Below are positions 54 through 29,345 of a stretch of DNA of 64,000 bases, piece after piece. The notes under the pieces are model-generated. The model made no database searches. It had not been told where the DNA came from and saw only the letters and a program-made list of their open reading frames with translations. Position numbers and translations under genes: made by a program. How positions within the stretch are numbered: position 1 is the stretch's first letter; each line of letters begins with the position of its first letter. The stretch is from Auricularia sp. M13 (lineage: Eukaryota; Basidiomycota; Agaricomycetes; Auriculariales; Auriculariaceae). The stretch is taken from contig CM073199.1 in the NCBI GenBank assembly GCA_037042915.1, positions 186,001 through 250,000 of the forward strand, given 5' to 3'.

Positions 54-1787
54 GTTTTGACGGGCAAAGATCCGTGGAACGATCTGAACCAAATGCAAGT
101 CTGTGTGGCAGTCGCGCGGGGGGAACGCCTGTCTCGACCAGATCAAGCAGCATTCAGTGATGAACTCTGGTCACTTTACATATCCTGCTGCAGTCGAGAC
201 CCAGCGCTTCGACCCAGCGCCAGTCGTGTCCTCTCTGAATTACTAAGCATGTGCGTACCTGCGTGCTCTACATGGAGCCTTTCGGATAACACAGCGTGAA
301 AACAAGCCGGGACCGAGATGCTGTATCTCGCTCCTGCGAGGAAGCGTCTATTCCAGATGTGAGTTCTATCCTCTCATGTATACCTTGACTGATAACCTCG
401 TACTCGATATCAGAAGAAGCCGGAGGAGAGGAAAATTGATTGGTCGGCCAAGGATGAACACGTGCGTATGATTATTGCCACTCGTGTCAAACATATGAAG
501 GAATTTCTGACTGTCGGCCTCAGAAGGACAGGGAATCACACGATCGTCGAAACCATCCAAGGTGCGCATTAAATCACCCCACAGGCCCAGCTATCCAACT
601 TTTCCCTAGCAGCCCTGTAGACGGACGAACCTTCGAGGCCCGTCCCCCATGGGCAGGGATTCCGCGAGCGGGTCTTTATAAACAGCTGCTTGACCAGCGA
701 ATACGCTGCGCTCTCAATGGCACAGAAGTAGACATCGACATTCCCAAGCAGGAAGCCTTTGGTGCCGGAGGAATGGGCGACCTCGTCAAGGGATATGTCC
801 ATCTCAATGAGTCTGATACGGTTTTTGCGGTCAAGGTTTGCCTCAACGCACAGGTGAGGTTGAAATTCCACACGTGAGAGCTCGTCTGACCGGACGATAC
901 CAATCAGAAAACGACCAATCGTGAACGCGACATCTGGAGCACCCTGAAGCATGAAAATGTACTTCAACTTTGCGGCGTGTTCGAGTTCACATGCAAGGAC
1001 CCTCGATCCCGGTGGGATATCCGATGCACTTGCTTTGTTTCGCCGTTCATGCAGCGGGGGAACTTACTCGAGTACCTGAGGTTGAACGGGCAGGCCGATA
1101 GATTGGCCTTGGTGCGTCCCAAATCTGTGGCGTCGCGGTTCCTGATTCTCCGGACTGTGTTTCAGATGATCGACGTCGCGAGCGGCCTGTCGTACATGCA
1201 TGACGAGGTAGAGCTAGTTCATGGCGATATCAAGCCTGTAGGTCATTTTGGGATTGATACTTAAAGTCAACTCTGACAATATATGACTAGGAGAATGTTC
1301 TGATTGCGGATGACGGGCGGGCTTTATTGGCCGACTTCGGCTTGAGCACAACCGTCGCCTGTGGGCCAGAGCAAATGGGATATGAGATCCGCCAGCTTCT
1401 TACCTTGGCTTACTGCGCTCCGGAGATCGTGGACGACGTCGCAGAATATGCCTCCGCACCCGGTGTCAAGCGCTCGAAGACCAAGATGTCCGACATGTTT
1501 TCATACGGAATACTGCTCTACGAGGTACGTAAAAATCCAGCACCGTACATTTTCTATGCACTCAGCCACCACAGACATACGCAGGGGCTCTGAATAGGAC
1601 GGGCCTCGGGAGGTTCAAGTTAATTGGCGACCTGCACGACGGCATATTTCCGCCCCGCCCTCCCCGCAGCGATCGTCTCCCCATCTTCTGCGACGAGCTG
1701 TGGTCCATGTGCACGCGATGCTGGGAGAAAGTTCCGGACGACAGACCTGTTATTGCCGCAGTTCTCTTGGAGCTTCAGGAGTTGTGA
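54..1787 (+). CDS. Tandem pseudokinase-kinase protein, copy 1 (5' partial)
   Basis: The exons join 54..250, 295..358, 414..461, 524..561, 610..853, 908..1111, 1166..1237, 1291..1524 and 1575..1787. They total 1314 nt and stay open to the stop. The first exon is the C-lobe end of a kinase-like domain (PWNDLNQ, then LWSLYISCC, then RPSASRVLSEL). A linker of about 55 residues follows, and then a complete TKL-like kinase: Gly-rich GAGGMG near residue 164 of this partial product, FAVKV lysine near 190, HGDIKPEN near 284, ADFGLST near 304, and an APE-like CAPEIV. HGD in place of HRD is usual in fungal TKL-like kinases. The two domains share a transcript by inference, because the same linker introns recur in copies 2 and 3. 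The substrate is unknown. The start lies outside the window. Confidence 0.8.
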
Positions 1788-2337
1788 GTGGCGGCGACGA
1801 AGCTGTTCATGACTTTGCAGTGTTAATATTGTGCAGGCGGTCGTCACAAGAGAGACACTTACTGGTGTCGGGGGACTTTGAGTCCCAGCTTTGGTACCTC
1901 CTGCTGCTTGGAATACTCTGCTGTGTACACAGGTTGTTTAAGTTCGTCATAAGTACGTCCCGCCGTTTCTTGTAATACCCTACAGGCTGGTGCAACTTGT
2001 TATTTGTCTCCCGACGCGAGGAGCATAGTCCCGGAGGTGGAGCATGAGGCCTGGACTGCTGCGCGCGCACGATGAGGTAGACTCGGTTTCCTTTTCCGCA
2101 CATGTCACACTGCCATCGTGTATCGAAGTACAGAGATGGCCATGAGAATATTCGAGTCCGACCGCTGGTAGCATGGCGACTACAGCCGACCCGGCGACGT
2201 GGTGCACCCCTGAGTTCCTAGAGGTTCCAAATACCCGCGGGCCGCGGCTCGGGACATGCAGAAGAAACAAGGAGTGGTTTCCCCCCTTCTCATTCCGACT
2301 GCCTGGCGACGGAGTTTTCCTCGTGCTTCGGTTGCTG
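1788..2337. other. Intergenic, no gene recognised
   Basis: This stretch follows the stop of kinase copy 1. It holds no open frame with recognisable motifs and no clear repeat before the tandem repeat begins near 2338. Confidence 0.4.
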
Positions 2338-3476
2338 CAACTCTCCGGGAAAACGGTTGCTCTGGCATCCCAATGTATCGAGCTCAGTTACACTAAGTGT
2401 CGGCTTCAATCGAAAGAAGCCGACAATCATGCACGGTTAAGCACAGCTGAGACGGCTTCATCTCGTGGATCTGTCACCTGCGAAGGGTGCGCGCGCACGG
2501 CAAGAAGCCGGCAGGAGAGAATGCTTGCGCTTCGCCAGTGCCATTGTGATCTGTGGAACCGCATCTCGAAGTCCTTCAGATGAGAGTCAGCCCGGATCTC
2601 ATCTCGGCGTTGTACTCTCAGAAACTTGTTCTGCTGCGTGGTACTCAGGCCGTAACGATGACCACGGCACCACGGTCAATTTCCGGTGCTCCGCGGCGTT
2701 CCGACGCCTGACGCCTGACGCCCATGGAAAGCGGTGACACAAGTCTCTGCCTGCCAAAAATTGACCTCAGTGGGCCCCTGAGAACGTGCATTCTCCGGGA
2801 AAACAGTTGCATCCTAATGCGGCGAGCTCAGTTACCCTCAGTCTGGTCAAACATCGGTTTCAGTCGAAAGAAGTAGTCAACCGCGCACGCTTAACGATGT
2901 GTCAGCGGACACCGTTACTTCATCTTGCGAATCCGTCCTCCACGAAGGGCGCTCAGCTTCATTCCCGAATCTCCGTACCTTTGTCCAAAATGGAGAATAG
3001 GAAATCTGAACAGGTATATAAGGTGCGCCTCCTAGGCCATTTAAATCCTGATTTTAACCCAAACCCTCTGCAGCCAGTAGGAACGATCACGATGTGCAAG
3101 CTGTACATGTACGTCATGGGGATACCAGTCACCTGAACCACTTGCTGACACGGACCGTTGTCTAAGAACCCACCACACTTACGACAGGTGCCCGCACGAA
3201 GTTGTCGATGTGCGTTGAGTTGCAGCTGGGAAATTACTCCACAAGGTTCAGCGTCATTAACCTGTTGCAGAGGGAGAAACATTCATTCGAGCGCTGCGGC
3301 AACCCATTTTGCCCAATCTGGGTCCGACACAGCAATCATTATCAGGCGAACCACGATTGCATCAACCGGTGCTTTCTGTTTCGCTCGCAATCCAATGTTC
3401 TTGAGAGAAGTACGTCGAGGCGAGGCCACACTTGAGACGTTTTATTCTCACATTTTTGACAGCGTACAAGAACGCT

Positions 3477-4310
3477 TGTCCCAAAAAGTGCAAGTTGGCT
3501 ATGAGGATTGACAAAGTGTGATAAGTCCTGATAACAGGGTCAGCCGACCCCCTACCTGATCAAACAGCTTCAGGGGGTATACTCGCTTATAGGCCTATTA
3601 TACGGCTGACAAGGCCGATACAAGTTTATAATGCGGACAAGGCGGATAAGAGCTGATCAACCACCCCGCCCGATACTATGAAAACTCCCCCAGCTACTCC
3701 TATGCGGCAGCTGGGTCTTACTTTATGTATTTACATTTGTACATTTACTACTTACTCGTAATACTAACCGGTGTACATTTTCTAAACTTACTCCAGATTG
3801 TACATGACTTGTATACTTTTCTAACTTAGCCTGGATTTGAACCAACGGCTTGTCTGCTGGCCACACGCGCCCTCGCGCGAGCTACCAGCTAGGCTATTCC
3901 GCCAATTGTCTGCAATGGTGGAGCAAAGTATACATGCCCGCTCCACCGCTCCACCGGACCTCCGCTCCATTAAACTGCAGCTCCCCTTCCATCTGGAGGC
4001 CCTCCAAGCACCATCCCATGACTGGCCTGACCTCTCAGTAGCTGGGACTTGAGTGAACAGGTGCTGGGGGTACTTGTTGCTGGTGAGGGTTGATCACCTC
4101 TGATGAGGCCTTATCCCAGGCCGCAGAGCTCTGATCAGGCCTTGATCAGCGCCGGTCACCGCTTATCACTCCACATTGAGGAGTTATCAGTTCTTACCAG
4201 GTCTTATAGGCGCTTAAGGCATCTCATAGGTGCGTATAGGCATGTATCACGATACATAGAGCTCTGATAAGAGCATAATCGCTGATCACCGATTTGCAAT
4301 TTTTGGGACA
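3477..4310. mobile_element. Non-autonomous TIR DNA element, 834 bp
   Basis: The left end (3477) reads TGTCCCAAAAAGTGCAAG. The right end (4294-4310) is its near inverse, giving imperfect terminal inverted repeats of about 17 bp. Both subterminal zones are rich in TGATAAG/CTTATAG-type words in both orientations, as in transposase-binding subterminal repeats. It encodes no transposase. I cannot fix the target duplication (at most CT), so the superfamily is open. It sits between copies 2 and 3 of the 445-bp repeat. Confidence 0.55.
3829..3903 (-). other. tRNA-like sequence with pol III A and B boxes
   Basis: On the minus strand TAGCCTAGCTGG (3885-3896) fits the internal A box and GGTTCAAATCC (3833-3843) fits the B box, with spacing typical of tRNAs. 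The 5' arm (GGCGGAA) finds no 3' partner to close an acceptor stem, so this is not a functional tRNA. A tRNA-derived SINE head or a tRNA pseudogene is more likely. It lies inside the 3477-4310 TIR element. Confidence 0.45.
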
Positions 4311-8634: not shown

Positions 8635-11503
8635 ATGACGATATAGTGCGTCCTGCAATCCAGACTTCATAGCGCTTTACTAACTCTTCGGGCAGCTACA
8701 CGTTGACGTTCTTCCTGCTCGCCGCCGAGGTACGTGTTCGGTGTCGGCTGAGCGAAGAACCAAAGGCTGACACCCGGGTAGATGGGGACGTTCTGCGTGA
8801 TACTGGCGCCTCTGCCGTTCATGATGCGCAAAAAGATGCTCACGTTCCTGAGCACCAACTTTGTCGTCGCCAAGATTGCGTACGGCCTCAAGATATCCTT
8901 CATGTCCGTCCTAACCGTCTTGCTTGCCCGCGCTGACGCTGAAGACTAGATTTGTCGGGATATTATTCGTCGACGCCGTCCAGCGCATGTGGAGGATCGT
9001 CGCGGAGGCGGAGCAGGCGAAGAAGGACGGCAGCGGCGTGCACGACGTCCGCACCGAGACGAACCTCGCTGCTCGCAAATTTTAGTACGTCGCCTTATCT
9101 TTCTTACTTTTCTTCACTTTGTCTTTCCTCTTCGTTCCCGCGACGCTGCCCACGTCATCAGCGCGCCATGACGCTGGGAGCGTCGCGCCCGCCGACGTCA
9201 TCCAGGCTTGCGCGGGCCTGCTCGATACCGCACGGCGTCGCACGCGTCCTATTCATACCTATTCCTCATCGCCCATGCCATGTCTGCCGTGACCTGCGTG
9301 TCAGGACGCCGACGTTATCCTGCGCTCTGACACGACGTCGTTTACGCGCGCGCGCGTGCGGCCCTCACCGTTCTCGTTTATTCATGAGGCCAGGCATGAC
9401 CTGCGTCCAGTCGCGTGAAGGACGCGTTCAGACTCTCCATCTGCGCGCACGTGCCGTTTCTGCTGTCCTTTCTCTTCCTCCCGCCTTCGTTCCTCCGTGC
9501 GCACCGTAGCGCCTGGCACTTCAAGGCGTCGCGGCTGCCGAAGATATCCCCGCCCGACGCGCAGTGTTCATTGTCTCCGGCGCTCAAGTCGTCATGGTGT
9601 GGCGAGGCCTCGCCGCCTTGCGCCCCGCCCCGAGGCTGGATGTGTCCACACATCTGGTGCGACGTTGTGCACCTTGTCCTGTGCGCTCCTGTTCTCGGGC
9701 ACGACCGACCCAGTCCATGTCCGACGCTAACGCGCGCGTGCGGGCCACGTCATCGTCGCCTCTTGTGCGCGGCTGCGCACACGCGCGTTCAGACACTCGC
9801 GATCCCGACGTCATACCCCTGCGCGCCTGCTCGTCCCCTTGCCCTTTCGTTCCCCGCGACGCGTCGTGCGCCTCCCGGCGCGTGCTGTCCATTGCGCGTC
9901 TTCCCGCGCATGCCGGGCGCCAGCTGCTTGCGCGAGGCCAGGCCTGCCCTGCGCCTGCGCGCACGGCATGCACATCGTCGCGTGCTGGACGCGTTCAGAC
10001 GCACGCCCCCGGCGACATTCCTACTGCGTCTGCAGCTCCCTTTGCGCGTTCGTTACACGCGTCGCAGCCGCCGATGTCATGAATGCCCCCAGCGCGTGCT
10101 GACCATTGTTCGTCGTCGCGAGCACCCACAACGTCATGGCGCGCCCAGTCCTCACGTTTGCAGCGGCTGGCGCATGCACCGTGATGCCAAGATGCTGACG
10201 CCATTCCCCACGTCTGGCGCCTCGCTGTGTGCGCCCCTTGTTCATCGTCGCCTGCGCCGTCACGACACGTGCCGGCCTAGCACGCGTGCGACCGTCCTGC
10301 TTCTGGTGGTGGACGACGTCATGAGTCGGCCTTTGCTCGCAGCCACGGGCTTTCACGACGTCATCCCGTCGAGCGCCCTGCGCTGCTCCCGACGTCACTC
10401 CGCTCGCGCACCGTTCGTCTCGCGCCACTCGTCCGTGATGATGACCTCGTCGCCCACGCTCCCGTGCCAGCCATGGTCGCCAGCCACCGGCGACGTCGTG
10501 ACTCTGTCCGCGCGCGATGTACTCGTGAAGGATGGCCGGACGCGTGCTGATTCTTCCCGCGCACGCCGCGTCCGCCGCGGACGTGCATATGAGGGAAGGT
10601 TGGGCCCGCGCCGGCGTCCTGTCGCGCCGTCTGTCTCCTCGTTCCCCGCTGTCTCTCGGCTTGTTCGCTTCTCCCACCACTTCATTTCGGCTCAAAATGC
10701 TTGTGCGCTCTTGCTAACGCCCACGCTCAGCGCGCAACGCAACACGTACCTGACGGGCTTCTGCCTGTTCTTGTCGCTCATCCTCACCCGCACGTTCTAT
10801 ATCCTGCTCGACCACCTCAGCACGCAGGAGGAGTATGCGAGGTTGAAGAAGGAGGTATGTATCGTTCTTCATTTTGGTGTGCTTCACGCGACGCTCCGCG
10901 CGCCAGCGATGTAATGTTAGCCGTGAGCGGCGGATCGTCTAACGTCAGCCCGCGCGCTGCCCAGTCCGCGTGCGCGCGACGATGACAATCAGTTGCGCGC
11001 GCTATGGGCTGGCTTTTTCGGGTTCGTTTGGTTGATGATGATGCTGACGCTTTGTCCTTGCTGCAGACGGCCGCTGCGTCCAGCGGCAAGCTCGCGAATG
11101 GTGGGAAGGAGGACGTGCCGACGCTCAAGAAGCGGATTGCGGAGCTTGAGGCGCGCGATCGTGATTTCGGTGAGTTGGGTCTTCTGCACCGTCCTCGCTC
11201 CCTACACACCATTCTTTTGCCCGTTTCATTTCTTGCCCATCCCACATCTGCACGATTGCTCGGCCGGTCGATTCGCTCTCATTCCTTTCTCCTTCGAGCG
11301 GCGCGGTCCTTCATGCTCGAGTTCTTGCATGACCTTCTGGCACTCACGTTCCCCTACGTTTGTTCGTTTGCGTTTTGACTGACACAGCGCCGTCCGCAGA
11401 GACACTGAAGAAGCAGAGCCGGCAGCAGGCGGAGGAATACGACCGTCTGGCGCGCGAGCTGAACAAGGCGACTGGGGGCACGGCGAGCAAGAAATCTGAC
11501 TGA
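8635..11503 (+). CDS. BAP31/Yet-family ER membrane protein
   Basis: The exons are 8635..8645, 8696..8729, 8782..8903, 8950..9084, 10731..10854, 11067..11169 and 11400..11503. They give 210 residues with no break. The start MTIYYTLTFFLLAAEMG is the family N-terminus. Membrane segments lie near residues 3-28, 42-66 and 105-130. The hallmark AQRNTYLTGF follows at 102-111, then a heptad-like coiled coil (about 160-200). The protein ends in KKSD, a KKxx ER-retrieval signal. The family (human BAP31, yeast Yet1/Yet3) works in the ER as an export chaperone. The AQRN motif is split from its tyrosine by a 1646-bp intron, far longer than other introns here. That intron still has a GT donor, a CTAAC branch site at 10714-10718 and a CAG acceptor. 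Confidence 0.92.
9085..10730 (+). repeat. Degenerate repeat filling BAP31 intron 4
   Basis: The intron is built of loosely repeated GC-rich segments. Examples are GACGCGTTCAGAC near 9422 and 9998, GACGTCAT-like words near 9190, 9808, 10070, 10316 and 10356, and GAGGCCAGGC near 9386 and 9935. The same type of sequence recurs at 22885-23290, so this is a dispersed repeat that invaded the intron. The plus strand stays open for about 1.3 kb in the frame of exon 5, but the composition explains that, and the frame does not join exon 4. Confidence 0.65.
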
Positions 11504-13605: not shown

Positions 13606-14421
13606 CACGTCGAAGACTTTCCGCTGGGCTGCGCACGAGGAACGAGCTCACACCGTCGTACGGAATAACGTTGCACGCGGGCGTAGTTGAGAGCGGCATG
13701 GCTGCTCCGGTACTACTGTATACGCTTCTCTCTACCGTGCAGGGCTGTCTCAGTGTGGATGCGATCCAGTGACTCTGCGTGAAGTCGGGCCAGCTAGGCC
13801 ATCGAATCGGTCAGAACTGGGTCTCGCACAGTGTGTGGACTCGGCCAGGCTGTCCTGGTGTGAAATTGGTCCGGCTATTAGTACTAGGAATCCGTTACAC
13901 ATCGTCTGCAGGACTGAGATGAGGCAACGGCAAGCGGACGGCGGGCTGGGGTATAACAGGAGCGGGGACAGCAGATAATGAGAGCGACTGCGTGACCGGT
14001 GGATTTTGTATTCTGGACGCGTCGGGAGGAGGGATGGGGGACAGGGCGGGCATGGGGATGGGGAGTGTACTTAGACTCGGACTCGGGCCGTTGTGATTAT
14101 CCCCTTTCCCGTTGCATAGTTCGCATGCATTCTCATTCCACTAAGCAGGGACCACTGACGTAGTCTCCCCGCTGTTTGATCTCACTTCCCTTTGGCCGTG
14201 CATCACTCTCTGTACATAAGCGGGGTCTCCAATCAGATCGTTTGAAGGATTATACATTCGACCGTACAGTATTCAACACAACGTCAGGATACAGTTTCCA
14301 GGGAACATTCTCACTCGCGCACGAAACAGCCCCTGACCCTACACGGTAAACACCAACTGCCGCTCTGGGGAAGAGTGCCTGCGAAACGTTAACGGGCTGC
14401 GCGGTCTGTCTGGCTGGCGAC
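13606..14421. other. Intergenic and kinase copy 2 3' flank
   Basis: There is no gene. The stretch near 14345-14390 (CGCTCTGGGGAAGAGT) also occurs downstream of kinase copy 3 near 26817-26832, so the kinase duplication included 3' flanking DNA. Confidence 0.5.
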
Positions 14422-15394
14422 TCACAAATCGCGCAGCTCATTGAGGACGGTTCCTATTGGTGGCCTGTCTGTCGGAACGAACACCCAGCAGCGCCTGCAG
14501 ATTGACCAAAGATCGTCGCAGAATATTGGCAGACGATGTGCACCTGAAGGGCAGGGTGGAAGCTTGCCTTGATACATGTCGCCCATCAACTTATATCTGT
14601 CGCCTCGACTTCCGCCCAGCCCGCCTGCGTAGGTCTGGAACAGGTCAGCCCAGCGTGGCACCCGAACTCGATCTCATACCTGAAAGAGTAAGACTCCGTA
14701 TGCATACATATCGGACATCTTTGTCTTTGAGCGTTTCACACCAGGTGAAGAGGGATCTTCAGCTACGTCGTCCACAATCTCTGGAGCGCAGTACGCCAAT
14801 GTATATCGTTGTCTAATCTGGTATGCGGTCGCCTGCGGTTGAGCAGCGACAGTGGTACTCAATCCGAAGTCGGCCAGCAAAGCACGCCCATCGTCCGTGA
14901 TCAGAATATTCTCCTGGGAGTAATTTATGGAATAAGTTTAAATACTGCGCATGATTGAATGGACCGAGAGGCTTACCGCTTTTATATCGCCATGGACAAG
15001 TGACTTCTCATTATGAAGGTACGATAGGCCATTTGCAACGTCCATCATCTGCAGCATAGTTCAGTTAGGGTTTCAGCTCGCTTACATTACCCACCAAGTG
15101 CAATCTATCTTCCAGTGGATTCCTTTTGAGATACCCGAGTAGATTTCCCTGTCGCATGAATGGCGAGACGAAGGCGCATGATTGCATGCTGGACAAATAC
15201 GACGGAATCTCGCACACGCCCCAGAGCGGAAGCACATTCTCGTGTTCTAGGGTCCGCCAAATTTCGCGCTCCCGTTTCATAACCTATTTCAGAATTTCTC
15301 ATTCAGTTAGAGTCATTCTTGTGTGCAAGATAACAAAGCCCACCTCTGTGACCTGACAGACTTTAGAGTGCGTTCGGTAACGGGTCATGAGAAA

Positions 15395-15805
15395 AACGTG
15401 CGCACGTGCGCAAGGTGCGTGCGCAACATTAATTCAACCATAGAAGCCCATTTAGATAAGATATTGTCATTGTTGAAGGTGATGGTGGTAGCTATGATAC
15501 CATTGCATGTGATTATCCAACAACGGTCATCAAACCTTAAATATACACAGAGATATTGTTGATATACACATTTCAACTTGCGTGCGCACGTGCGCACGTG
15601 CGCAAAACTAACGTGCGCCTGCGCACGCACTGCGCACGCATGTTGCAAGTATGCGCACGCAAGTTTGCAAGATGCGCACGCTATTGAAATGTGTGCGCAA
15701 AGATGCTCACGCTCTGCGCACGCAAGTTGGAACCTTGCGCACGCACTGTTGGAACATGTGCACGCAGTCGTAATTGTTGTGCACGCTCACTTGGACTTTG
15801 CGCAC
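15395..15805. repeat. Subterminal TGCGCACG repeat cluster, left
   Basis: Dozens of TGCGCACG/CGTGCGCA words occur here, densest at 15577-15800 and often followed by CAAGTT. Together with the matching cluster at 17005-17230 they flank the 15.4-17.3 kb segment symmetrically. Such arrays are commonly transposase-binding sites. Confidence 0.7.
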
Positions 15806-16119
15806 GCTGTTGAAGAAATGTACACAAGCTCTTCTTATGCCTACATGCACCGCTCATAAATGAGTCTGCAATTACTGGACAAGGATCACATGTTCTGAGT
15901 TCACGTCTTGTTCGTTATCAAGAACATTACATTCTGACAGACAGGTTTGGTTTACCAAAGTTATAGTTGGTTGACCAGCCCTTAAGTACTAATCTCCAAT
16001 GAAGCAAAGCCCATGTGGTTCTTACATTAGTGCATCTCAACATGAATATACATCAGACCTAGTGCTACTTTCTTTTACGTGTCTTTGGTTTTTTGACAGG
16101 CTTTGTTGCAACTGCCACT

Positions 16120-16560
16120 GTTTTGCTTTTCTGGCGCTTTGCTGCAGCCCGTTCCTGTTCCTCCTCCTCCATTTCCATTTCTGCGAAGAATTGTCTGTAA
16201 AAGCAGGTCAGTAAGTTTGCTAAATTTGATGACACCAAAAACTTAACCTTTTTTGACTTGGTGTTTCTCGCATTTCTGCATTTGACATTTCGGGGGTGGG
16301 TGGCCTTTTGGGTGAATTTTCCCTATAGTCTGGTCCACGCTGTGCATTGTTGTGTTTGAATCAACTTCTGCAAAGCAAAAAATGAGTGACTTACTGTGAT
16401 AGCCAAATCATATTCATCAGACTCTATGTTCCATCCTGCTTCATCATGTCTATCCTCCGTTGGACCATGCACATAGGGATTCCAGTGATGCTGGTGGTGA
16501 CCAGCATCAAGGCCTCATTGTGACAAAGCAGATAAGCCTAGGTCACAGGACTGATCAAGC
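16120..16560 (-). other. Possible coding remnant in the left Harbinger segment
   Basis: The minus strand reads FFAEMEMEEEEQERAAAKRQ, then a Lys-rich tail ending KPKTRKRK and a stop near 16066. Upstream, DEAGWNIESDEYDLAIT precedes a plausible short intron (GTAAGTCACTC, ending TTTGCAG). An in-frame stop lies further upstream. It may be an element-encoded accessory protein, but I do not recognise a family. Confidence 0.35.
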
Positions 16561-17004
16561 ATCAAGTCCTCTAGGATGGACAACACAAACACGTCCAGGT
16601 CAACCTGCTGCTTGGGACCTTTATACTAAACTTGGTACTGATCCCAAGCTTCAGCTACTGTCATCTTGTTGTGGGATGCAAGAATGGATGTAATTGGCAA
16701 TCGAATACATTTGCAACTTCAAGTGTGCATTAACGTTCGAGTGTAACACAACTTCTGATTCATTACACTTGTGATATATAGTGTGCATTAATCTTTGGGC
16801 CTAATGTAATCTCCAACTGATCACTTTGACATGCATTGCAAGCTCTGTAATCCACACTGCTGATGACTTCCTCGGCAGTAACGTGGTTTCTAGTTCATTA
16901 CACTTGCGGCTTCTAATGTGTATGCTGAATATAAGATAAGCTTTAGTATACCGCTGACTTTGCATGTGTGTTATCCATCGAATATAATACAATACACTAG
17001 CAAC

Positions 17005-17230
17005 CTCAGACTTGCGCACACATACTTGTTTGTGACTTGCGCACACATACTTCTGACCTGCGCACGCACACCCATGACCTGCGCACGCATGAGGAAAAGC
17101 GTGCGTTCAGAGTTTTGGACCCTGCGCACGCAAGTGAAAACCATGCGCACGCATTTTGAAAACTGCGCACGCAAGTTGTACGCACGCAAAATTCTGCGCA
17201 CGTGTGCACACGCACCCTGCGCACGTTTTT
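17005..17230. repeat. Subterminal TGCGCACG repeat cluster, right
   Basis: TGCGCACGC words alternate with spacers of 8-20 bp. The end TGCGCACGTTTTTCTA mirrors TGAGAAAAACGTGCGCA next to the left terminus at 15366. This supports 15366 to about 17264 being a separate element with its own two ends. Confidence 0.65.
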
Positions 17231-17461
17231 CTAGGGGTCCTTCGGTAACCGAAGCGCAGCTCCGGAAATGATGCGGACGCCCAGATTTTCGGGCGGAGCA
17301 TCATCCCGGGCCGAAGTGCGTTCGGTAACAAATCGCCGGCCTCAAACCTTGAAGCGCCGCTTCGTCCGGCTTCGCTTTCTGGGGCTCGGCTCTAGAGGTC
17401 CGCTGCAAAACACCGACGCTTCGCCGCTCCGCCACCGCTACTGCCGCTGCCAATCACAGCC

Positions 17462-18673
17462 ATGGCCGACTCTGATTCTAACACCAGCAGCAGTGACTCG
17501 GAGCAAGACAAAAAGAAGAAAAAGAAGAAGAAGAGCACCGCCGAAAAATGCAAATGGCTGTCTGCTCAATCGGCGGCCATGCTCGACGTACTCAAGGAGC
17601 AGAAGGCACAAGGCCAGCAGTCCGAGAGCGGCTGGAAGGAGACCGTGTGGACAGCCTGTGCCGAGGCCCTCCAGGAGGAGTTCCCGGATGCTCTGGGTGC
17701 CGTCAAGACCGCGGCAAAGTGCCAGGACCATTTCACCAATGTACGTACCATGTGCATGGTCTCTTCTGCTATTATATGGTGACTGCCTCTGTATCAGCTC
17801 AAGGGGGACTAAAAGGTTGTCAAGGAGCTTCGAGCACGCTTTGGGCTGGGCTGGGATGAGGCGGGGTGCATGGTAACCGCCTCGCCCGACGTTTGGGACA
17901 AAACTTGCAAGGTGTGCGCTTTCTGCTCATTTGCATGTTGTGTAGTAATTGCTATAGGCCAACAAGAAGTTCAAGAAGTTCCGAAAGAAGGCCTTCCCAC
18001 TGTACGACGCGCTTGCAGACCTCATCGGCGACGTCGTTGCAACCGGGGAGGGTGCGCTTGTGCTCTCAACTCCTGCCGTCAAGAAACCCGACACAAAGCC
18101 GCCCAAGAGCAAGGCCGAGAAGGAGGAGAACGATGTATGTGTTTTTTTATGTTGATTTCGCACTCCTGATCTCCTGGTCAGGAGCTCAAGAAGCGCCGTC
18201 GTAGCAGCACTGGATCTGAGCCCATTGAGATTGAGACCAGCGATGACAATGTGAGTGCCTAGCCCGATTTCAGCGCCGCTAATGCAAGGTTTTGTGTAAA
18301 TTACTCGCTCTACTGGTGCCTCCAAGCGGCAGAAGACTGCAACGGGCGGGCGCAAGCCTTCGGGTGCGTCGGCAGTTCATGGTGTTGCTGGCAGCCTCGA
18401 CAACCTGAGCAACACCCTTGCCGATGTCCTGGGCAACAAATCGGCTGAAGCAGCGGAGTCAAGGGTCGCCAAACGGCGCTCCGAGGCGGTTATTCTTGTC
18501 TCCAACATGACGGACCTTCCTATTGCCCAGCGCGCTGCGCGAGTCGCCTATTTGCGGACCAGCTCAACGTTGACCTTCTCCTGGAGATACCGGTGGACGA
18601 GCTCAGGGTTGCATTTGTGCAGGAGCTACTTTCGGCGGAGGATCGGAGGCTAGGTACATCTCGCACGTCTTGA
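17462..18673 (+). pseudogene. Harbinger Myb/SANT-like DNA-binding protein, disrupted
   Basis: The start MADSDSNTSSSDSEQDKK is followed by poly-Lys, then a Myb/SANT-like domain (KCKWLSAQSAAMLDVL, GWKETVWTACAEAL, AAKCQDHFTN) ending at a donor at 17741. The next exon opens LKGD and then a TAA where a tyrosine codon is expected (DYKVVKEL in relatives). It continues KVVKELRARFGLGWDE, then Lys-rich segments. Near 18540 the likely frame shifts to FADQLNVDLLLEIPVDEL and a stop at 18673. This protein normally helps the transposase bind the ends. The stop and shift suggest it is no longer functional, unless a different acceptor skips the TAA. Confidence 0.7.
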
Positions 18674-18682
18674 GTATCTACA

Positions 18683-20031
18683 CTAGCGGCGACGGCCGCG
18701 TCGTCGGCGTTCACAATAGTCAGCCCACATTTCCTCTGCAATGCGATCACGGCGCGCATCTGCTCTCCTTGTCTCGGCACGGGATACATTGCCACCGAGT
18801 TCATCTTCATTGATCTGGTTCGATTCGGTGTCGTTTCCCAGGTCTGGGTCGTTGAAGAGCTCGTCATCGGGGTCGTGGATGCGGATGAAGTTGTGAATAA
18901 CAAGACACGCAGGGATGATACGAGCCTGGCCCTCGATGGGCAGGTTGCACGGTTCACGTAGAACGGCAAAACGCTTCTTGGCAACACCGAAGCAACGCTC
19001 GATGACATTGCGCGCACTGGCATGGCGTTTATTGAACAGTTCCTTGGCATTCTGTGGTCTGAAAGCAAGTCAGAGGACAACTACAAGTTGAAAGAATGCG
19101 CACTCCTTGCCACAAGTTGCCCATTCCTTCAGATGGTAGCGCACACTACGGTACGGTACGAGCAGAGCATCACAGTGTCCATAACCAGCGTCAGCAAGGT
19201 AGTAGGCGCCAGGCGGGACTGCAAGGTCGGCTCCACGAGCATAGGTGAAGACAGTTGTGTCGCAAGCGCTGCCCTCCCAGCCAGTCAGAACATATGAGAA
19301 CCGCATGTCAAAGCGGCAAGCAGCAAGGACATTGTGGGTGAGGTCGCCCTTCCTGTTGCGGTAGCGGCCGCGGATATCGCAAGGAGGGATAGCATCAAAG
19401 AAAGAGCCGTCGAGAGCACCACGTGCATCCTTGAAGAACGGATAGAAGCGGTTGTCCTCCTCGATCTCCTCCGGCGTCTCGTCCTCAGGAAGAACCATGT
19501 ACATGGTGTAGAACTTGCTGCCAGTGAGCGCATGCAGCATCTTGTTGTAGAAACTATTCGCGCAGTGAGAACTTGAATACGAAAGGACAGTGCCACGAAC
19601 TATGAGACAGTGGATCCGCTGCGTTGAAAGCGTTCCTGGAGGCTTCGATTGGAGCGGTTCTCCCGGACACCAAGCAGGAACATTGCCACCTGCTCCTGTG
19701 CTGTCACATATCTGGTGTCCAGGATGTCGCCGTACTTGCCCAGGGCAGCAACAAGGCGTCTAAAAACATGCTTGTGCATACCCAGGGATTCATGGACACG
19801 CCTCGGGCTTTCGGCATCAAGGAGCTCTTGAACCCACATATTGCCGGTCATCATGCTGTTGTGGACCCGGATCTTTGTGAGGAAAGCATCGTGGTAATAG
19901 GCAGAAGTGACGGCGGCGGCAGCGGCAGCGGCAGCGGCAGCGACGACAAGCACAGCAATACGGCGGCGCTTTTCAGGGTCCTGGGAGCGTGTATCTGCCG
20001 TCCGACGTGCGACAACTGACTGCACGGCCAT
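18683..20031 (-). CDS. PIF/Harbinger (HARBI1-like) DDE transposase
   Basis: The exons 20031..19601, 19553..19104 and 19058..18683 give 1257 nt and 418 residues without a break. Both introns (47 and 45 nt) have GT/AG ends. The N-terminal helix-turn-helix part includes QEQVAMFLLGV and SNRSLQERFQRSG. The catalytic triad is visible: ALDGSFF (Asp near 192), LADAGYG (Asp near 265) and RNVIERCFG (Glu near 314). PQNAKELFNKRHASARN is the family block before the Glu. An alanine run near residue 30 comes from a GCN repeat. The stop is 10 bp from the converging Myb gene. The enzyme appears whole and could still act. Confidence 0.88.
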
Positions 20032-22139
20032 AGGGCCGTTATGCGCGTGTGTAGCAGAAGCAGAGATTATTTTATTTGACTTTGTGTACAGCGCGGCCTG
20101 GAACTGTTCGGTAACGCCGAGCGATGCCGACGCATCAGATTGCGCAGCGCCGCCAGCAGGTTGGTCACCGGGCGTAGCCTGAAGCCGAGGCGCAGGCCGG
20201 CCCGTTACCGAACGCACTCTTAACAGCCAAAACTCTGATCGTGCCAGCGATATTTGCATATCCCTTCAGCACCTGGGCCATCCCTCCACGAAAGGGTTTC
20301 TGTTTGGGAATCGCGATGTCTACCTTCGTTTCGTACAGCGTGCAGGGTATTGTTTGCTCAAGCAGCTCAGTGGCTTCTTCCATCAGAGCAGCCGCGCGAC
20401 GCGGCGAGGCTGCCCATGAGGGACATGTCATGAAGCCGTCTTCTGGGCTCCTAATACGTGGTTAAAAGGCCAACAACATGAGACATTTGATGCTTACCTA
20501 GGACTTTCCGCGGGAGTCAGGTAGTCAGACGCACTCGAAGGTGGACTGCTAGCGTCGGTTGGATTCAAATCAATCTGATTCACGCTGTCAGAGCTCTCGC
20601 TGCCCGGGGAGTTTGCGCCTCTAGTTCGTACGCACAGATAATTGCTCAAGTGATCGACAAATCCACCGTTCGGATTTCTCCTAGTGATGAGTATGACTAG
20701 CAACTGAGAGCACAACAGCAAATGAACTCACATTTAGGGCGGATAATTCTTCGCTCACGCGACCCACGCCATCGGGAGCTCTGCTCGAGCTGACACTTTG
20801 TAAGCGTTCCGAGTCGAATACAGGGCGCGCGGATACGCACATGCGATACATTTCTGAGTGAACATGACTGATACTCGGGCGCAGCAGTGGGTCCCCACAC
20901 CAGCAGGACCTGCACAGCGACCAGAGCGCATCGCTCATATCTGGATGTTCTGGGCGAGGGGGAAGTTTGCCCCTCACGGTCTCCAACAGAACCTGCATTT
21001 GAGTTCTCCCTGCCCAGGGTTCTTTTCCTGTAACAACCTGGATATTGCATTCAATGGTTCGCGTCTAAATGATGCAAAGCATATGCACCTCCAGGACGAG
21101 CATTCCGAAGGCATATACGTCACTCGCCGTAGTCTTGGATCGTTTCCACCCGGTTGAGAAATCGGAAGCGTCGTCGGTGAGCAGCTCGGGGGCTGCGAAT
21201 CGCAGCGTATACGTTTCCCGGGGCCGAGTCACTATCAATTTGGGCTGATTCGGTCAACGTGCTCAGTCCAAATCCGCCGAGCAAGACACCCCCGGTATCC
21301 GATACGAAAACATTGCGCTATGAAATGTTCAATGAAGAATGTGCACAGTGTATGAAGCGCTCACTTGGCAGATATCACCATGGACTACGCCCGCCACATC
21401 ATGGAGATATTGTAACGCCTCGGCCACTTGAAGAAGCTGTAATGTCCGCGTTAGTCCTTCTCGAGTAGACGGGAATAACAGCACGCACAAGTATCATTTT
21501 ATCTTCTTGGGGATTGTTTTTAAGATACTGCTCGAGGGTGCCGTTGCGCATGTAGGGCATCACGAGGGCAAACTGCTTGGAGACTGGCAGTGCGCAGGCG
21601 CCGTAGAGGGGTAGAATTCTCTCATGTTGCGCCCGTCGCAAGTGATTTATCTCACGTAGTATCAACTGCTATCAAAGTTAGCCGCGGCCGTTAAGCATTG
21701 TGAATGCAAGTTTGACGCACGTCTCGTGACTGGTCCGAAAACATCACTGGATAGACCTTGACGGCGACCTCAACGACAGTGTGATCCAGCAAGACGAGCC
21801 TTCCTCGATATATCGAAGCCTGCTCGCCGCGCGCCAGGAGTTGCTGATTAGAAATCCTGAGCGAGACCTGCCCTTCATAGTAATCGAGTGTTGTGATGAG
21901 TTCTGAGCTCTCGTCGTCGTCTTGGGTGGTAATTTCTGGCGATTGTTCGCCGGACGTATCGGTTGGAGGCTGCGGCAAATTGGACATCGAGTGGTGGGTT
22001 GACAGCGAGTCGAGGAAGAACGTTGACAGTAGCCCGGATCCGACCGTCACAGAGCGGCTGCCTCATGGCCACATAACACGAGGCAAGCGCCTCCCCCAAG
22101 GTAGACGGCAGGAGGCAGCGCAAAATAGCACCCACCAAT

Positions 22140-22880: not shown

Positions 22881-22884
22881 GCTC

Positions 22885-23582: not shown

Positions 23583-25126
23583 CTACCATATGTCCTCGTC
23601 GCTGGTAGAAGAATCGTACTCGTAGTCCACCAGCTCTGGCTCAGACTCCGTCTCGAAACCCAATCGCTTCCATGCCTGTAACTTCCTGGAAGAAGCGGTC
23701 CAACATCCTCTACAGTGTCGAACTGAACGCGAAGCCCGCTGCCAGTGACGTCGACATCATTCAGCGCGTCAGGCGGGAATCCCTGGATGCGAATCTCGGG
23801 CAAGGCGTACGGATCGAGCTCGAGAGCCGCGATATGCTGCACGAGCTCGCGCGTCGAAGGCGGTTGGTGCGGAACTGCAGAACAGCTTGCGCCCTTCGAT
23901 GTTGCAATAAATCTGAAGGTGGAGCGACAGAAGATCGGGTAGCGCAGTCGTGAGGCGTGGAAAATATGCCAGCGGCTCCCAGCATGGGAGCGGACCTGTC
24001 GTCCTTGTGCAATCCCGGTGCGGCACGAACTCGGCGTCGTTGTGTATGACAAGGTGTTTGAGCGCAGGCAACACCGCTAAGACGTCTATGAAATTTTCCA
24101 GAGTGGCGAGGCCGAGCTTGACGGTGTGCACCTTGTGAAGGCTGCGCTTGATACCCAATAGGTTCTCTGCAAGAAACGTGGTGGATGTTGCGATGTAACC
24201 GACGGTGCGCTCGTGCGCGTGCGTCGGTCGGGAAGGCTTGCTTTCATCCAGCAGAAACTATCGCCGTGCGACGCTGTGATCGTGAGCATGAAAGCGTCTT
24301 GGAGGAAGGAAGCGGGAATGGGCTTCAACAAGGTTACCGGGAAAAATTCTAGCCAGACATAACGAAGATTCGGCGTCCTCCATTTGAAGTAGATTGACAA
24401 CAGATCAAGGTCCGTCTCAGTAGATTGCAGAGTCAGCTCGCGCAGGGGGTTGGGGGCAGGCCCAGAAGGCAGTTTGTCTCCGAGGTCGCCATGGATATCC
24501 AACAGAGTCAGAGATTGGAGACGGGGGCAAAGATCGAAAAGACGAGCGTATGAAGCATTGGGGTCCCGGACATACAGCGTGACCAACGATGAGAGCGCAG
24601 GGCATGTCTCGGGGAGATCCAGGCGTGCGCACCGGATGGTACGAAGTCTGCCGACCTGTCCCCCGAGGAAATCCTGCGATAACTCGAGCTGACCGCGAAC
24701 GTGCAGATATTCCAGTAACGGTGCACAGACGGGCAAGGTAGTCGCCACTCCACTCGTTGATCGCAGCGTCAGGGACCGTATCCGGTTCAAGTACGGACGT
24801 ATGTCGGCGTCGGCGACGGTCTCGTAGTCGCTGTAAGTTGTACGGACGCTCAAATCGACGGCCATTGGTTCTGCTCGGCGCAGGGCCATTTCAAGGATAT
24901 AAAAATCGAGAGGCCTGAAGAGCGAGATCGAGAATCGGGCCCAGACTATGGGGTTGGAAAGTGCTACGGCGCGCCAGCTCCGGGAGACGTGCGAGGCCCG
25001 AATTCGGTCTTGCAAGCGGAGGAACGTGAAGCAATGAGCAAGAGTATTAGCAGGTAGCCGTGATGTGAGGCTATCCTGATTGAAGACATTCAGCATGTCG
25101 CGCAGTGCGCGCACCGTCGTGTCCAT
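23583..25126 (-). pseudogene. F-box/LRR-like gene with several frameshifts
   Basis: An F-box-like start (LPANTLAHCFTFLRLQDRIR, then SRSWRAVALSNPIVWARF) is followed by leucine-rich stretches (IRSLTLRSTSG, LEYLHVRG, LVTLYVRD, LQSLTLLDIHGDLG). The frame with sensible sequence changes near 24235, again near 23880 (STRELVQHIAALELDPY) and near 23690 before the end (GFETESEPELVDYEYDSS) and a stop at 23583. No splice sites explain these changes. F-box proteins recruit substrates to SCF ubiquitin ligases. Either this copy is dead or the assembly has indel errors. The start is uncertain; an upstream Met at 25222 is possible. Confidence 0.7.
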
Positions 25127-25229
25127 GATGCTGTTGAAAATCTCGTTCATGCGCATCTCACTAGATCTGCTCGTCAGCCACACAAGTCCAGCTATGAGAA
25201 AGGTCTGCATACTCTGTGACACCAGCTGC

Positions 25230-26389
25230 GAGTGGTAGAAAGTCGGATCTAACTTGCGCGAAGCTCATCGCCGTTGAAGTCCAACATTGCTTTCTGTTTG
25301 CGAGTGCTTGGCCTGATGCAGCACCAGATCAGTGGCAGTGTACGAAGCATCTTCCTCCGCTAGCTCCTGCTTTGCTGCCTCCTGCTTTGCAGCTTGCCAG
25401 CGCTGACGGCTAGGCCGCCCTGCCTCTTGTGTAACTCTGGCACCAACATTGGTTGTAGCTCTTCAGTCCGTGTCAATGCCCGTAAGCCACGACCGACCTG
25501 GTCGTGGGCGTGCTTAGCTTGTGCGTTTTGCGACTACACAAGCTACTCATCCAGCTCGCCGACGTCTCCCTTCTGCTCATTATCTTGCGTGGGTCGTCAT
25601 GAAACACTGCTGCTCTGGGCCAGGGACCGAGCTGTCAATCGAAATCTGGTATCGCTGGTATCGCGCTCCCGCGGCCGCTACTAGGATGACTTGCAGCGCG
25701 CACATCTTGGAGCCGGAGTAGCGCTCAACGACGCCAGCCTCTGACTTCGGCGCTTGACCAGCGGCATTCTTGAATTATTCAGACGCGGATACGCGCACAA
25801 CTGTCTTGGCTCTGGTGTTCTTCAGTGCACGCCGCCCCTCGGAGCTGCTCCATGGTCTGCATTACTGAATTTCTCCCGGGCAGTACGCATCTTGGCCATT
25901 CGCGCTACATTCGACACCCTTATATTTCGGTGTGCCTGCTCATGTTGCTCATGGTAATCGTTCCGCACTGGACACTGGCTCAGGATGCCAGTCTGTATTA
26001 CCTGCAGTCTCGGCACCATGTATCGTGCAACGGGACGCAGAGACGCCGCGCTGTAATACCGCGCGAGGCCGCGCAGAAGTGTAAAGCTCAACGCTGTGCG
26101 CATCGGCCGTTTTCTCGTCCGTCTGACTCATTCCCTGCCAGCCCACAACTGTGTTTCCGATCCCACCTGCAACACCCCTTCTCGGGCGTACCTGAGAACT
26201 CTCGCCATCAACGCGACACAGTTTTCGCGTGCGCCGCGGAGTTCAAGTGGTGTCTTGGCGGCAGAACGTGCGCAATCATGAATCGGCTTGCAGCGCACTC
26301 GCGCGAGATGCGCTGCGTGCTTTCAAAATTCAGACATCAGATGCTCATTCTTCAGAATCCGTTGTCGGGCGGCTGAACGCACTGGACGC
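25230..26389. other. Region with gene remnants, none assignable
   Basis: The minus strand at about 25270-25470 keeps a coiled-coil-like stretch (QRWQAAKQEAAKQELAEEDA) ending in a stop. The plus strand near 25930-25970 encodes a hydrophobic run (YISVCLLMLLMVIVPHW). Neither can be extended into a recognisable gene. Confidence 0.35.
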
Positions 26390-26545
26390 CGAGCGGCGCC
26401 GGGCTGAGCAAATGCGTAATGAAACTGACTAATCGGACTGTCTGTTCTGTCGTGTCGCATAACCTCCTCGATTCTTTTCTTCTTGTGCGTTTTGTGGTAC
26501 GGTATGATACGAACATGAAATCTTTCCCCCCTCTATTCTGATTGC
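26390..26545 (+). pseudogene. Second BAP31 3'-end fragment
   Basis: From 26452 about 70 bases nearly match the BAP31 3' flank at 11577-11648 (GTCGCATAACCTCCTCGATT and onward), differing at a few positions. Just before, RLNALDAERRRAEQMRNETD ends in a stop and has coiled-coil character like the BAP31 C-terminus. The rest of a BAP31 gene is not present in readable form. Confidence 0.65.
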
Positions 26546-26878
26546 TACGCGATGTAGGCTAGCTACATTGCCTCTGTCCCTAAATTCGCTGGAAAGGTCA
26601 ATATTGTCCTGGCCCGTGCACACGCGCGGAGACTCTGCTTGCCACGTGCGTGCAGCACTTTGACAGCTAACTCCTCGCGAATATCTGTGCTATGCGCGTC
26701 CACGTCTTGCTGCTATATACGTGGTCTACCTGATCCATTCTAATTTGTCACATTACCATCGGTAATCCAACGCTTACAGTGTTCGCTGTCTTACTAATCA
26801 AACACAAGCCACTGTCGCTCTGGGGAAGAGTACCTAAAATACGTTATGGGAGTGCCCGCCGGCTTCAGGTAGTACGAC
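26546..26878. other. Intergenic and kinase copy 3 3' flank
   Basis: No gene is seen. The end near 26810-26870 resembles the 3' flank of kinase copy 2 near 14345-14420. Confidence 0.4.
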
Positions 26879-29345
26879 TCACATCTCGCGCAGCTCGAAG
26901 AGGACGGCCGAGATTCCTGGTCTCTCGGTTGGAACATTCGCCCAGCATCGAGTGCAGATAGACCAGAGTTCGTCGGAGAAGATGGGAAGATGATATGGCT
27001 CCGATGGCCTGGGTGGAAACCTGCCTTCGTACATGTTGCCGATCAACCTGATTCATTCTCTTTGACTGCGACCCAGGCCTCCAGCGTAGGTCTGGTCCAT
27101 TTCAGCGTCCGAAGACAGATGTGATGCTCACGTCTGACCTGATAAAGCAGGACTCCATACGCCCACATATCGGACATCTTCGTCTTAGAACGTTTGACGC
27201 CCGGCGCGGAGGGATATTCGGCGACGTCGTCGACAATCTCCGGAGCGCAGTATACTAAGGTGTATAGCTGGCGAATATGGAATGCCGTTGCGTGTTTCCC
27301 AGGAGCGACAGTTGTGCTCAAGCCGAAGTCGGCCAACAAAGCCTGTCCATCGTCAGCAATCAAAACGTTCTCCTATGGATATGTGTTATGGATTATCATT
27401 TCCGTCGCACAACGGTGTGATAGGAAGACGTACCGCTTTTATATCGCCATGAACGAGTGATTTTCGTCGTGAAGGTACGCCAGACCGTTGGCAACGCCGG
27501 TCATCTTGAATCAAGCGGTTCAGGTATTGCAGCCGTCGGAAATCTATACTCACCAAGCGCAATCTATCAGCCAGAGCATTCCGTCTCAGGTATTCCCGTA
27601 AGTTTCCCTGTCGCATAAAGGGTGAAACGAAGCAAGTTCGCACGCTGGACGACTCGGACGCCGACTCTTCGGGCGGAAGCTCACACACACCACAGAGTCG
27701 AAGCACATTGTCGTGATGCAGAGTGCGCCAGATCTCGAGTTCACGCTTTGTTTTCTGTTGAGTGGCGCTCGATTGAGTATATGCACTTCGCGGTGAGCAG
27801 TTGCTGGCTGACCTGTGCACCGTGGCAAAGCTTGACGGCAAAAACCTGAACAGTCTCGTCGACGTTGGTATATCCCTTCAGCACCTCACTCATGCCTCCA
27901 CGAAGGGGGCGCTGTTTGGGAATAAATATCTTGGTCGCGGATCCGTCGAGAGCGCAGGGTATCATCTCTCTGAGCAGCTCTGAGGCGGCCATCCGCAGCC
28001 GCGGGACGAGGTGACGATGGCCATGAGCGACAGGTGTGGAAGTCTTGGCCATTCACAGGGCTGAAAATGTGAGATTATATAAATAGACGTGTACCGTGCA
28101 CGAAGTACTTCGTGCCTACCTTGGACTTGTAGCGGCAGTCAAAGGATTGGGCCGATTCGACGACCAGCTCCTTTCATTTTGCGCGATCAGGTACCTCCAC
28201 TGCTCATAAGCGAACACTCTCGTATTCACAACACTCGCGATAAAGGTTCACACGCACAAACTCTCCACCAGGTGGACGGTCGATTTGCAGAGGGGATTTC
28301 TCCTAGTGAAGGAACTGCGTCAGAAGTCGGACTGTGGAGGAAGACACACTCACGTCCTGATGGTAGGGTAATTCGTTTATCACACGAGTCAGAGCATCAG
28401 GGTCTCTGCTTGAGCTGGCGCTTTGATCAGCGGAATAGTCAGTTACATAAACCTCGTGGACACTCACATGTTGCGCATTGCTGAGAGTACGCCACTGGCA
28501 GTGCGTCTAAGCAGCGGTTCTTCACACCAGCAGGATACGCATAGTGACCAAAGAGCATCATTGAACTCTTGATGTTCTGGGCGGTCGGGCAGCATGCCCT
28601 CGTTCATATCAACTACTCTTGAAAAGAGCAACTTGCTCTTTTCAAGTAATTTCTCCAAGCTGCTGGGCGAGGTTTCTCGCCTGTGACAACCTAGACGAAG
28701 GGCAAGCTCAGTATTCGGAACAATTTATACATAAGGCACGCGCACCGACAGGATGAGCATTCCCGCAGCATATACGTCAGTTTGCGAAGTCCTCGATCGC
28801 AGCATCCCGGTCGACGGATCGTAACCGTTCCAAAGGAGCCGCTCTGGAGCTGCGAACTCGAAGTGGTACAGTTCCGCGATCACTTCATCAGTGCCACAAA
28901 TGGTAGAATCGGGGACGATTAGTGTGGTACGTCCGAATCCGCTGAGCAAGGCGTTGCCGCTGTCCGATATGAGGACGTTGCCCTAAAGCATGTTTGAAAT
29001 GCCCAAGAAACGTGGTTAATGCACAGCTCACCGGCCAGATGTCCCCATGAACTACCCCTGCAACGTCGTGGAGATATTGTACACCTTTGGCCACATGCAG
29101 CAGCTGAAAATGCTACGATCAGTCGATGTTACAGAGGATAGACACACATCACCCACCAGCTGCAGTCTGCCCCCCTGCGGATGGAGATGCAGATAATGAT
29201 CGATGCTACAATTTGTTCTCGGCGAACGGCAGCAAGGAGCCGCAGGCGCCCTGTGAGATGAAAGCCTGCGGTAAGTTCGCAATCTTCGCGATTTTCTCGC
29301 TACCTGCGGTACTGTCCCATAAGCGCGTGCGAAGGGGAGTAGCAC
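26879..29345 (-). pseudogene. Tandem pseudokinase-kinase gene, copy 3, decayed
   Basis: Domain 1 (about 29345-28464) keeps GACGSLLPFAEN and, in another frame, HYLHLHPQGGRLQLV. It then has YLHDVAGVVHGDIWP, GNVLIS, and SGFG in place of DFG, and the C-lobe end LWSLCVSCWCEEPLL. Its N-lobe is missing. The linker repeats the copy 1/2 intron pattern. Domain 2 (28052-26879) has LRGGMSEVLKGY, VFAVK, SLVHGDIKA, ADFGLSTTVAPG and CAPEIV. It also has a 1-nt shift near 28010 and an in-frame TGA near 27050 within the TYAGGLGRSQRE region. The final stop is at 26879. Confidence 0.75.

Follow-up and report, generated by a model that had tools for sequence, protein, structure and literature searches.

Three loci with a predicted pseudokinase-kinase tandem, two of them pseudogenes, in a genomic window of the fungus Auricularia sp. 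M13

A stretch of 64,000 nucleotides from the genome of Auricularia sp. M13 (assembly GCA_037042915.1, contig CM073199.1, positions 186,001 to 250,000 of the forward strand; hereafter the window) carries three loci at which a first kinase domain (D1), a linker and a second kinase domain (D2) follow each other on one strand (Table 1). The readable part of copy 1 is intact. The other two copies, as sequenced, are pseudogenes, and the window shows no gene that is both complete and intact. We favor an explanation in which a TKL-type gene was duplicated and fused, a silent D1 would control D2, and copies 2 and 3 are dead. Taken as a whole, this chain is judged to be only just probable. A mushroom-forming fungus as the host is in keeping with the shortness of the introns and the type of kinase.

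The gene models were built by hand from three-frame translations and an exon plan common to the copies. They contain 9, 13 and 12 introns in copies 1, 2 and 3, respectively. All 34 have GT-AG edges, a count that is descriptive and not independent evidence, since the edges were chosen by hand. A Pfam scan covered pieces of copies 1 and 2 only. In a preliminary description of this DNA, the copies had been placed at 54-1787, 14422-22050 and 26879-29345. The models and the PF07714 matches in copies 1 and 2 confirm three loci with D1, linker and D2 on one strand, while the ends have moved to those listed in Table 1. A working family of three copies is not supported, since two are broken and none is complete within the window. 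A further copy was not found in the window by tblastn with both domains (E up to 1), the sole other match having E = 0.78. The linker pattern reported before is common to all three copies. After a phase-2 intron, the linker opens with a Ser/Arg exon (VKTSRDRDAV in copy 1, VSSSRAPDGV in copy 2 and ASSSRDPDAL in copy 3) and runs into SPVDG, SPEDG and SPVNG, respectively. Likewise, all three copies have a tail exon behind a phase-2 intron (RSSQERH, HSSPERQ and YSSPERQ in copies 1 to 3).

Table 1. Coordinates of the three tandem-kinase loci and of the transposon in copy 2 (window positions).
Feature	Position	Strand	Details
Copy 1	54-1975	+	D1 end, linker, D2 and tail exon; ten exons visible
Copy 1, D1 end (C-lobe, ~65 residues)	54..250	+	First exon in view; ends at phase-2 intron
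Copy 1, linker (86 residues)	295..718	+	Exons 295-358 (Ser/Arg), 414-461, 524-561, start of 610-853; open, GT-AG introns
Copy 1, D2 (complete kinase)	719..1783	+	Exons 610-853, 908-1111, 1166-1237, 1291-1524, 1575-1783
Copy 1, tail exon (RSSQERH...)	1837..1975	+	Phase-2 intron as in copies 2 and 3; hydrophobic end LWYLLLLGILCCVHRLFKFVI; stop TAA
Copy 2	14339-21987	-	ATG at 21987; transposon inside D2
Copy 2, start and D1	20841..21987	-	Exons 21987-21721, 21665-21489, 21436-21365, 21317-21089, 21037-20841
Copy 2, linker (106 residues)	20330..20795	-	Exons 20795-20732, 20680-20667 (tiny, uncertain), 20620-20498, start of 20450-20220; inner border approximate
Copy 2, D2 N-terminal piece	20220..20330	-	Reaches the codon aligned with the beta-3 lysine; outer border approximate
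PIF/Harbinger-type transposon (4,854 bp)	15366..20219		19-bp perfect terminal inverted repeats; inside D2 coding exon of copy 2
Copy 2, rest of D2 and tail exon	14339..15362	-	15362-15353, 15283-15095, 15048-14977, 14913-14680, 14634-14426, 14378-14339
Copy 3	~26794-29367	-	Several lesions
Copy 3, D1 remnant	28468..29103	-	29103-29032, 28982-28746 (GFG), 28690-28468 (frameshift)
Copy 3, linker	27960..28420	-	Exons 28420-28354, 28302-28258, 28199-28120 (edges uncertain), start of 28060-27813 (frameshift); inner border approximate
Copy 3, D2 and tail exon	26794..27960	-	Rest of 28060-27813, 27754-27554, 27504-27434, 27372-27139, 27091-26883, 26833-26794

Copy 1 reads as a single spliced frame of 482 open codons in ten exons, separated by nine GT-AG introns of 44-62 bases. 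The open reading from the D1 C-lobe through the linker and D2 had been described before, with a length of 438 codons. This length is superseded, as the TGA at the end of D2 is part of a phase-2 intron donor and the tenth exon (1837-1975) lies beyond it. PF07714 matches the whole reading with E 1.7e-36. The visible end of D1 is 50% identical to D1 of copy 2 over 66 residues; the remainder of this domain lies outside the window and is cut off by its edge. The tail of copy 1 extends beyond the end point of copies 2 and 3 into a stretch resembling a membrane helix (19-residue hydropathy 2.0). This stretch might anchor the protein in a membrane. Such a function is not claimed, as copies 2 and 3 end before it.

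Copy 2 has the only whole D1 of the three copies, which is frameshifted in the activation loop (exon 21317-21089). An in-frame stop is found 26 codons upstream of its ATG, and ~40 residues precede D1. PF07714 matches D1 before the frameshift (1.7e-26), the D1 C-lobe piece (4.3e-13) and D2 past the transposon (3e-29). The piece that bridges the D1 end and the D2 start stays under the Pfam cut-off (17.2 vs 23.1 bits). The transposon is inserted at the D2 codon aligned with the beta-3 lysine. It is flanked by a TTA/TAA target duplication (15363-15365 and 20220-20222) and contains a DDE_Tnp_4 match (E 4.6e-9) at 19073-19759 on the minus strand. A TTA/TAA duplication, terminal inverted repeats and a DDE_Tnp_4 transposase are the defining features of PIF/Harbinger elements. 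By its sequence, which has all three, the element belongs to this group. The region 15400-17350 inside the transposon has many words resembling GCGCACGCA, and the terminal repeat occurs a third time at 17316. The third repeat copy and these words suggest that the element is nested or composite.

Copy 3 is frameshifted in exons 28690-28468, 28060-27813 and 27504-27434 (before HGD) and has an in-frame stop in exon 27091-26883. A D1 N-lobe is not recognizable upstream: the sequence at 29157-29367 is garbled, and the best local DNA match of the N-lobe there has a score of 21, which equals the median of 100 shuffles. tblastn with D1 of copy 2 matches copy 3 only from query residue 121 onward.

The two domains differ in their catalytic motifs. 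D2 of copy 1 has a full set (GAGGMG, AVK, HGDIKPEN, DFG and APE). In D2 of copies 2 and 3, the glycine loop is poorer (RGGMA and RGGMS), while the catalytic loop (HGDIKPEN or HGDIKAEN) and DFG are found in D2 of all three copies. D2 is predicted to be of Ser/Thr type, the tyrosine-kinase motif AARN being absent. In D1, DFG is replaced by GFG in copies 2 and 3, which are both of the copies showing the site. We assume that the DFG aspartate was probably lost in a common ancestor of copies 2 and 3. In D1 of copy 2, the glycine loop (RGEQAS) is poor and Cys replaces the catalytic-loop Lys, while VAVK, HGD and the Asn are kept; its helix-C Glu looks kept when read by eye. D1 of copy 3 has Trp at the position of the catalytic-loop Lys. 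From these motifs, we infer that D1 is catalytically silent.

To test for coding, protein-guided codon alignments were compared with controls (two wrong frames and the antisense strand), using the ratio of the nonsynonymous to the synonymous proportion of differences (pN/pS); runs agree within 0.04. For D2, pN/pS is 0.34 (copies 1-2), 0.36 (copies 1-3) and 0.29 (copies 2-3), with controls at 1.14-1.65. For D1, it is 0.47 for copies 1-2 (controls 1.22-1.39) and 0.49 for copies 2-3 (controls 0.98-1.12). The linker is clearly constrained between copies 2 and 3 (0.57 vs controls 0.81-1.09). Purifying selection is thus strong on D2 in all three pairs, while D1 is clearly below control in two of three pairs and the linker in one of three. 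In every pair, the constraint on D1 is weaker than that on D2. Synonymous distances (Ks) are large (~1.1-1.8), and the copies are therefore considered to be old duplicates with a long coding history that preceded the breakage of copies 2 and 3. In copy 1, only ~470 bp separate the coding parts of D1 and D2, and the intron plan is similar in the three copies. No Met precedes the D2 glycine loop in the spliced linker of copy 1 or in the open reading frame 458-877, which holds exons 4 and 5. D2 of copy 1 is thus devoid of a start of its own there.

The relationship between D1 and D2 points to an origin within one gene. D1-D1 (40-54%) and D2-D2 (61-68%) identities between copies exceed those between D1 and D2 (26-40%), so that the tandem arrangement predates the divergence of the copies. 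In phmmer searches, D1 of copy 2 scores 166.7 bits with D2 of copy 2 and 126.8 bits with D2 of copy 1. Among solved chains, the top match for D1 is JAK1 (69.3 bits, two domains summed; best single domain printed 52.6, an ephrin receptor). For D2, it is an EGFR chain with two kinase domains (64.3 bits; best single domain 60.5, a Src-Abl ancestor), and for a profile of D2 from the three copies again JAK1 (74.8 bits, two domains summed; best single domain 66.9, RIPK3). The scores are not length-matched, as the D1 query had 200 residues in the search of solved structures and 277 in the D1-D2 comparison, and the comparison sets contained no fungal single-domain kinase. Four of the five intron sites in D1 and D2 share alignment column and phase (three internal phase-0 sites and one terminal phase-2 site). 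A chance coincidence of at least three of four internal sites occurred in none of 300,000 draws. Because four of the five intron sites match and the mutual scores beat those of the solved chains, D1 and D2 most likely go back to one duplicated and fused TKL-type gene. The only basis for the assignment to TKL is that RIPK3, TNNI3K and tyrosine kinases are the nearest solved kinases. In a scan of bacterial and archaeal genomes, the 80 loci listed of 330 are 24-40% identical and bacterial by title, and a scan of viral contigs yielded one locus (25% identity).

A pseudokinase followed by a kinase is the order of animal JAKs, as the preliminary description had pointed out. By motif, this order is also seen here, as copies 2 and 3 have GFG in D1 and copy 1 has a complete D2. 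In JAK, the pseudokinase is likewise N-terminal to the kinase, but the active domain has an AARN catalytic loop, whereas D2 has HGDIKPEN or HGDIKAEN in all three copies. FERM and SH2-like domains had no Pfam match in the scanned proteins of copies 1 and 2; copy 2 starts ~40 residues before D1, though a further upstream exon is possible, and the start of copy 1 falls beyond the window edge. The earlier view that the pair arose separately from JAK is supported by the lack of FERM, SH2 and AARN, by the mutual D1-D2 scores and by the common intron sites. GCN2 also has a pseudokinase before a kinase and occurs in fungi, but an RWD domain precedes and a HisRS-like domain follows the pair, while the copy 2 N-terminus and the tail exons found here are short. 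RWD and HisRS-like domains had no Pfam match in the scanned copy 1 and copy 2 proteins.

The earlier mention of JAK and GCN2 as known tandem kinases omits Dictyostelium Pyk3 (PMC3934975) and plant tandem kinases (PMC11153570). Pyk3 is a TKL protein with two C-terminal kinase domains, the first being a predicted pseudokinase, and its authors liken it to JAK (PMC3934975). Its C-terminal TKL pseudokinase-kinase pair is matched by the loci described here in their domain order and PF07714 matches. It differs in having 1338 residues and a long low-complexity N-terminus, compared with ~40 residues before D1 in copy 2. Pyk3 is from another organism, and evidence for a common origin is lacking. In the Dictyostelium kinome, pairs of an active and an inactive kinase domain arose on multiple occasions (PMC1420674), and in Phytophthora infestans, two kinase domains stand in tandem in three of the kinases (PMC3019232). 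Plant tandem kinases have two kinase domains, one predicted to be inactive, and duplication or fusion has been proposed for their origin. They act in disease resistance. In Pm57, Yr15, Pm24, Lr9 and Sr62, the kinase precedes the pseudokinase, the reverse of the order found here, and Pm57 and Lr9 carry a vWA domain (PMC11153570).

Among the groups whose descriptions were compared, FslK is the nearest described fungal one. FslK is a fungi-specific kinase lineage related to tyrosine kinases and was expanded in Agaricomycetes by duplication. It consists of 241 kinases from 14 fungi, six of them belonging to Chytridiomycota and the rest to Agaricomycetes, and 16 of the 241 have extra domains (PMC3937382; listed in Table S3 of that paper). 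AARN is absent from FslK as it is here, and the Pro at the fourth position of the FslK GXR(L/M) motif is found in five of the six domain copies (GIFP, GKLP and GRFP in D2; GKLP and GMLP in D1), the exception being D1 of copy 1 (GERL). With regard to the complete catalytic motifs of FslK, the loci give a mixed picture, D2 of copy 1 having them and D1 of copies 2 and 3 lacking them. The loci also differ from FslK in having two joined kinase domains, one of them without the DFG aspartate; the likeness is one of motifs and not a clade placement. Many TKL kinases have been noted in Laccaria bicolor (PMC2838846). Among the papers listed in searches of the open-access literature, as judged by titles and abstract openings, none describes a mushroom tandem pseudokinase-kinase protein. 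Pseudokinase-kinase pairs as a kind are already known, while a fungal pair that arose by its own duplication would be new among these papers.

Several points weigh against the favored explanation, including the hand-chosen intron edges, the unequal query lengths and the absence of an intact complete copy stated above. Between copies 1 and 3, the constraint on D1 is weak (0.67 vs controls 0.80-0.91) and that on the linker is not below control (0.84 vs 0.65-0.78; bootstrap P for a ratio of at least 1 = 0.07). The linker is also weakly constrained in copies 1-2 (0.61 vs 0.77-0.81). Two Met residues each are present in the copy 2 and copy 3 linkers. The question of a separate start between the domains, raised in the preliminary description, is thus answered in the negative for copy 1, while such a start for D2 may exist in copies 2 and 3. 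GFG is no proof of inactivity, if one judges by analogy with CASK and plant ILK1 (see below). Finally, the first intron (before helix C) is placed eight columns apart in D1 and D2 by mafft and falls in a gap in the global pairwise alignment. The spacing to the next conserved block is equal in D1 and D2 of copy 2 (22 residues), and the two sites are probably the same.

D1 and D2 might be neighboring single-kinase genes in the same direction, their fusion being an artifact of short introns. In support, both domains end at a phase-2 donor, and the unspliced D1 donor of copy 3 reads as a stop. The linker Met residues of copies 2 and 3, the lack of linker constraint above control between copies 1 and 3 and the rarity of extra domains among FslK kinases (PMC3937382) also speak for separate genes. 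We consider this decidedly unlikely, given that D2 of copy 1 has no Met before its glycine loop in either the linker or the open reading frame, that so little sequence separates its coding parts, that the intron plan recurs in all copies and that the linker is below control between copies 2 and 3. It is also unlikely that all copies are non-functional and were kept by chance in a transposon-bearing region, with copy 1 possibly broken past the window edge. The transposon and frameshift in copy 2, the lesions of copy 3 and the presence of a Helitron in the window are in line with such a graveyard, but all 482 visible codons of copy 1 are open, and the D2 ratios of 0.29-0.36 speak for long coding service before the breaks.

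D1 could be an unusual active kinase, in which case both domains of the product would phosphorylate and the term pseudokinase would not apply. CASK (GKGPFS/FAVK/HRD/GFG), which has an intact glycine loop, is listed as active, while VRK3, which combines GFG with a degraded glycine loop, is listed as inactive (PMC2639636 Table 1). Plant ILK pseudokinases carry GFG, and activity has been reported for ILK1 of that group (PMC9403797). In its motifs, D1 is intermediate between CASK and VRK3. The beta-3 Lys, the HGD Asp, the catalytic Asn and apparently the helix-C Glu are retained in copy 2 D1. The degraded glycine loop of D1, Cys or Trp for the catalytic-loop Lys, the precedent of VRK3 and the weaker constraint in each pair make an active D1 improbable, and we give it little credence. 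True kinship with JAK, whether inherited or acquired from an animal, is already contradicted and has next to no probability. JAK1 and TYK2 chains have the best total scores for D1 (69.3 and 65.7 bits), JAK1 is first for the D2 profile, and in the alignment the JAK1 pseudokinase has a similar glycine loop (IYxG) and an HGNVCxxN catalytic loop. Kinship was rejected because each of these totals adds up two domains. Taken by itself, the kinase domain of JAK1 scores 37.3 bits with D1, below the ephrin receptor, and 53.0 bits with the D2 profile, below RIPK3. Moreover, FERM, SH2 and AARN were not found, and D1 and D2 resemble one another much more closely.

In the duplication-fusion explanation that we favor, an ancestral intron-bearing TKL-type gene with a single kinase domain would have been duplicated in tandem, and the neighbors would have fused into D1-D2. 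The linker would begin where the ancestral tail exon stood, the tail exon having become the Ser/Arg exon. This homology of tail and linker is only suggested, in that both follow the same phase-2 intron and open with a similar Ser-Ser. The product would exist as one protein of ~700 residues (copy 2 model), with a short N-terminus, a degenerate D1, a linker of ~85-106 residues, a complete D2 of TKL kind and a short tail. D1 would have lost phosphorylation and, most likely, would hold or release D2 by direct contact, as the JAK pseudokinase does.

Other features of the window are as follows. The Helitron (41832-47996, minus strand) has an open frame of 2,054 amino acids with DUF6570, Helitron_like_N and PIF1 helicase domains. 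It lies in a block of low GC (0.43-0.48), compared with 0.56 and 0.64 in the 2-kb blocks flanking 40-48 kb. Six tandem copies of 137 bases (95% matches) at 39244-40066 have several open frames on either strand. An open reading frame of 392 amino acids located between copies 2 and 3 (24086-25264, minus strand) has an F-box-like domain (3.9e-8). Another of 504 amino acids (9400-10914, plus strand), which is probably part of a spliced gene, matches part of Bap31 at its end (1.4e-10).

It is tempting to speculate that mushroom-forming fungi evolved their own JAK-type switch, in which a TKL gene was doubled and fused, D1 became the regulator, and the family is still signaling in living species. We regard this as doubtful. 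A fungal pair whose duplication and fusion can be read from its introns would show how easily a pseudokinase-kinase switch arises. It would also offer a testable mode of regulation for the greatly expanded kinases of Agaricomycetes, the functions of which are unknown, and the GFG domain lets nucleotide binding by such domains be examined.

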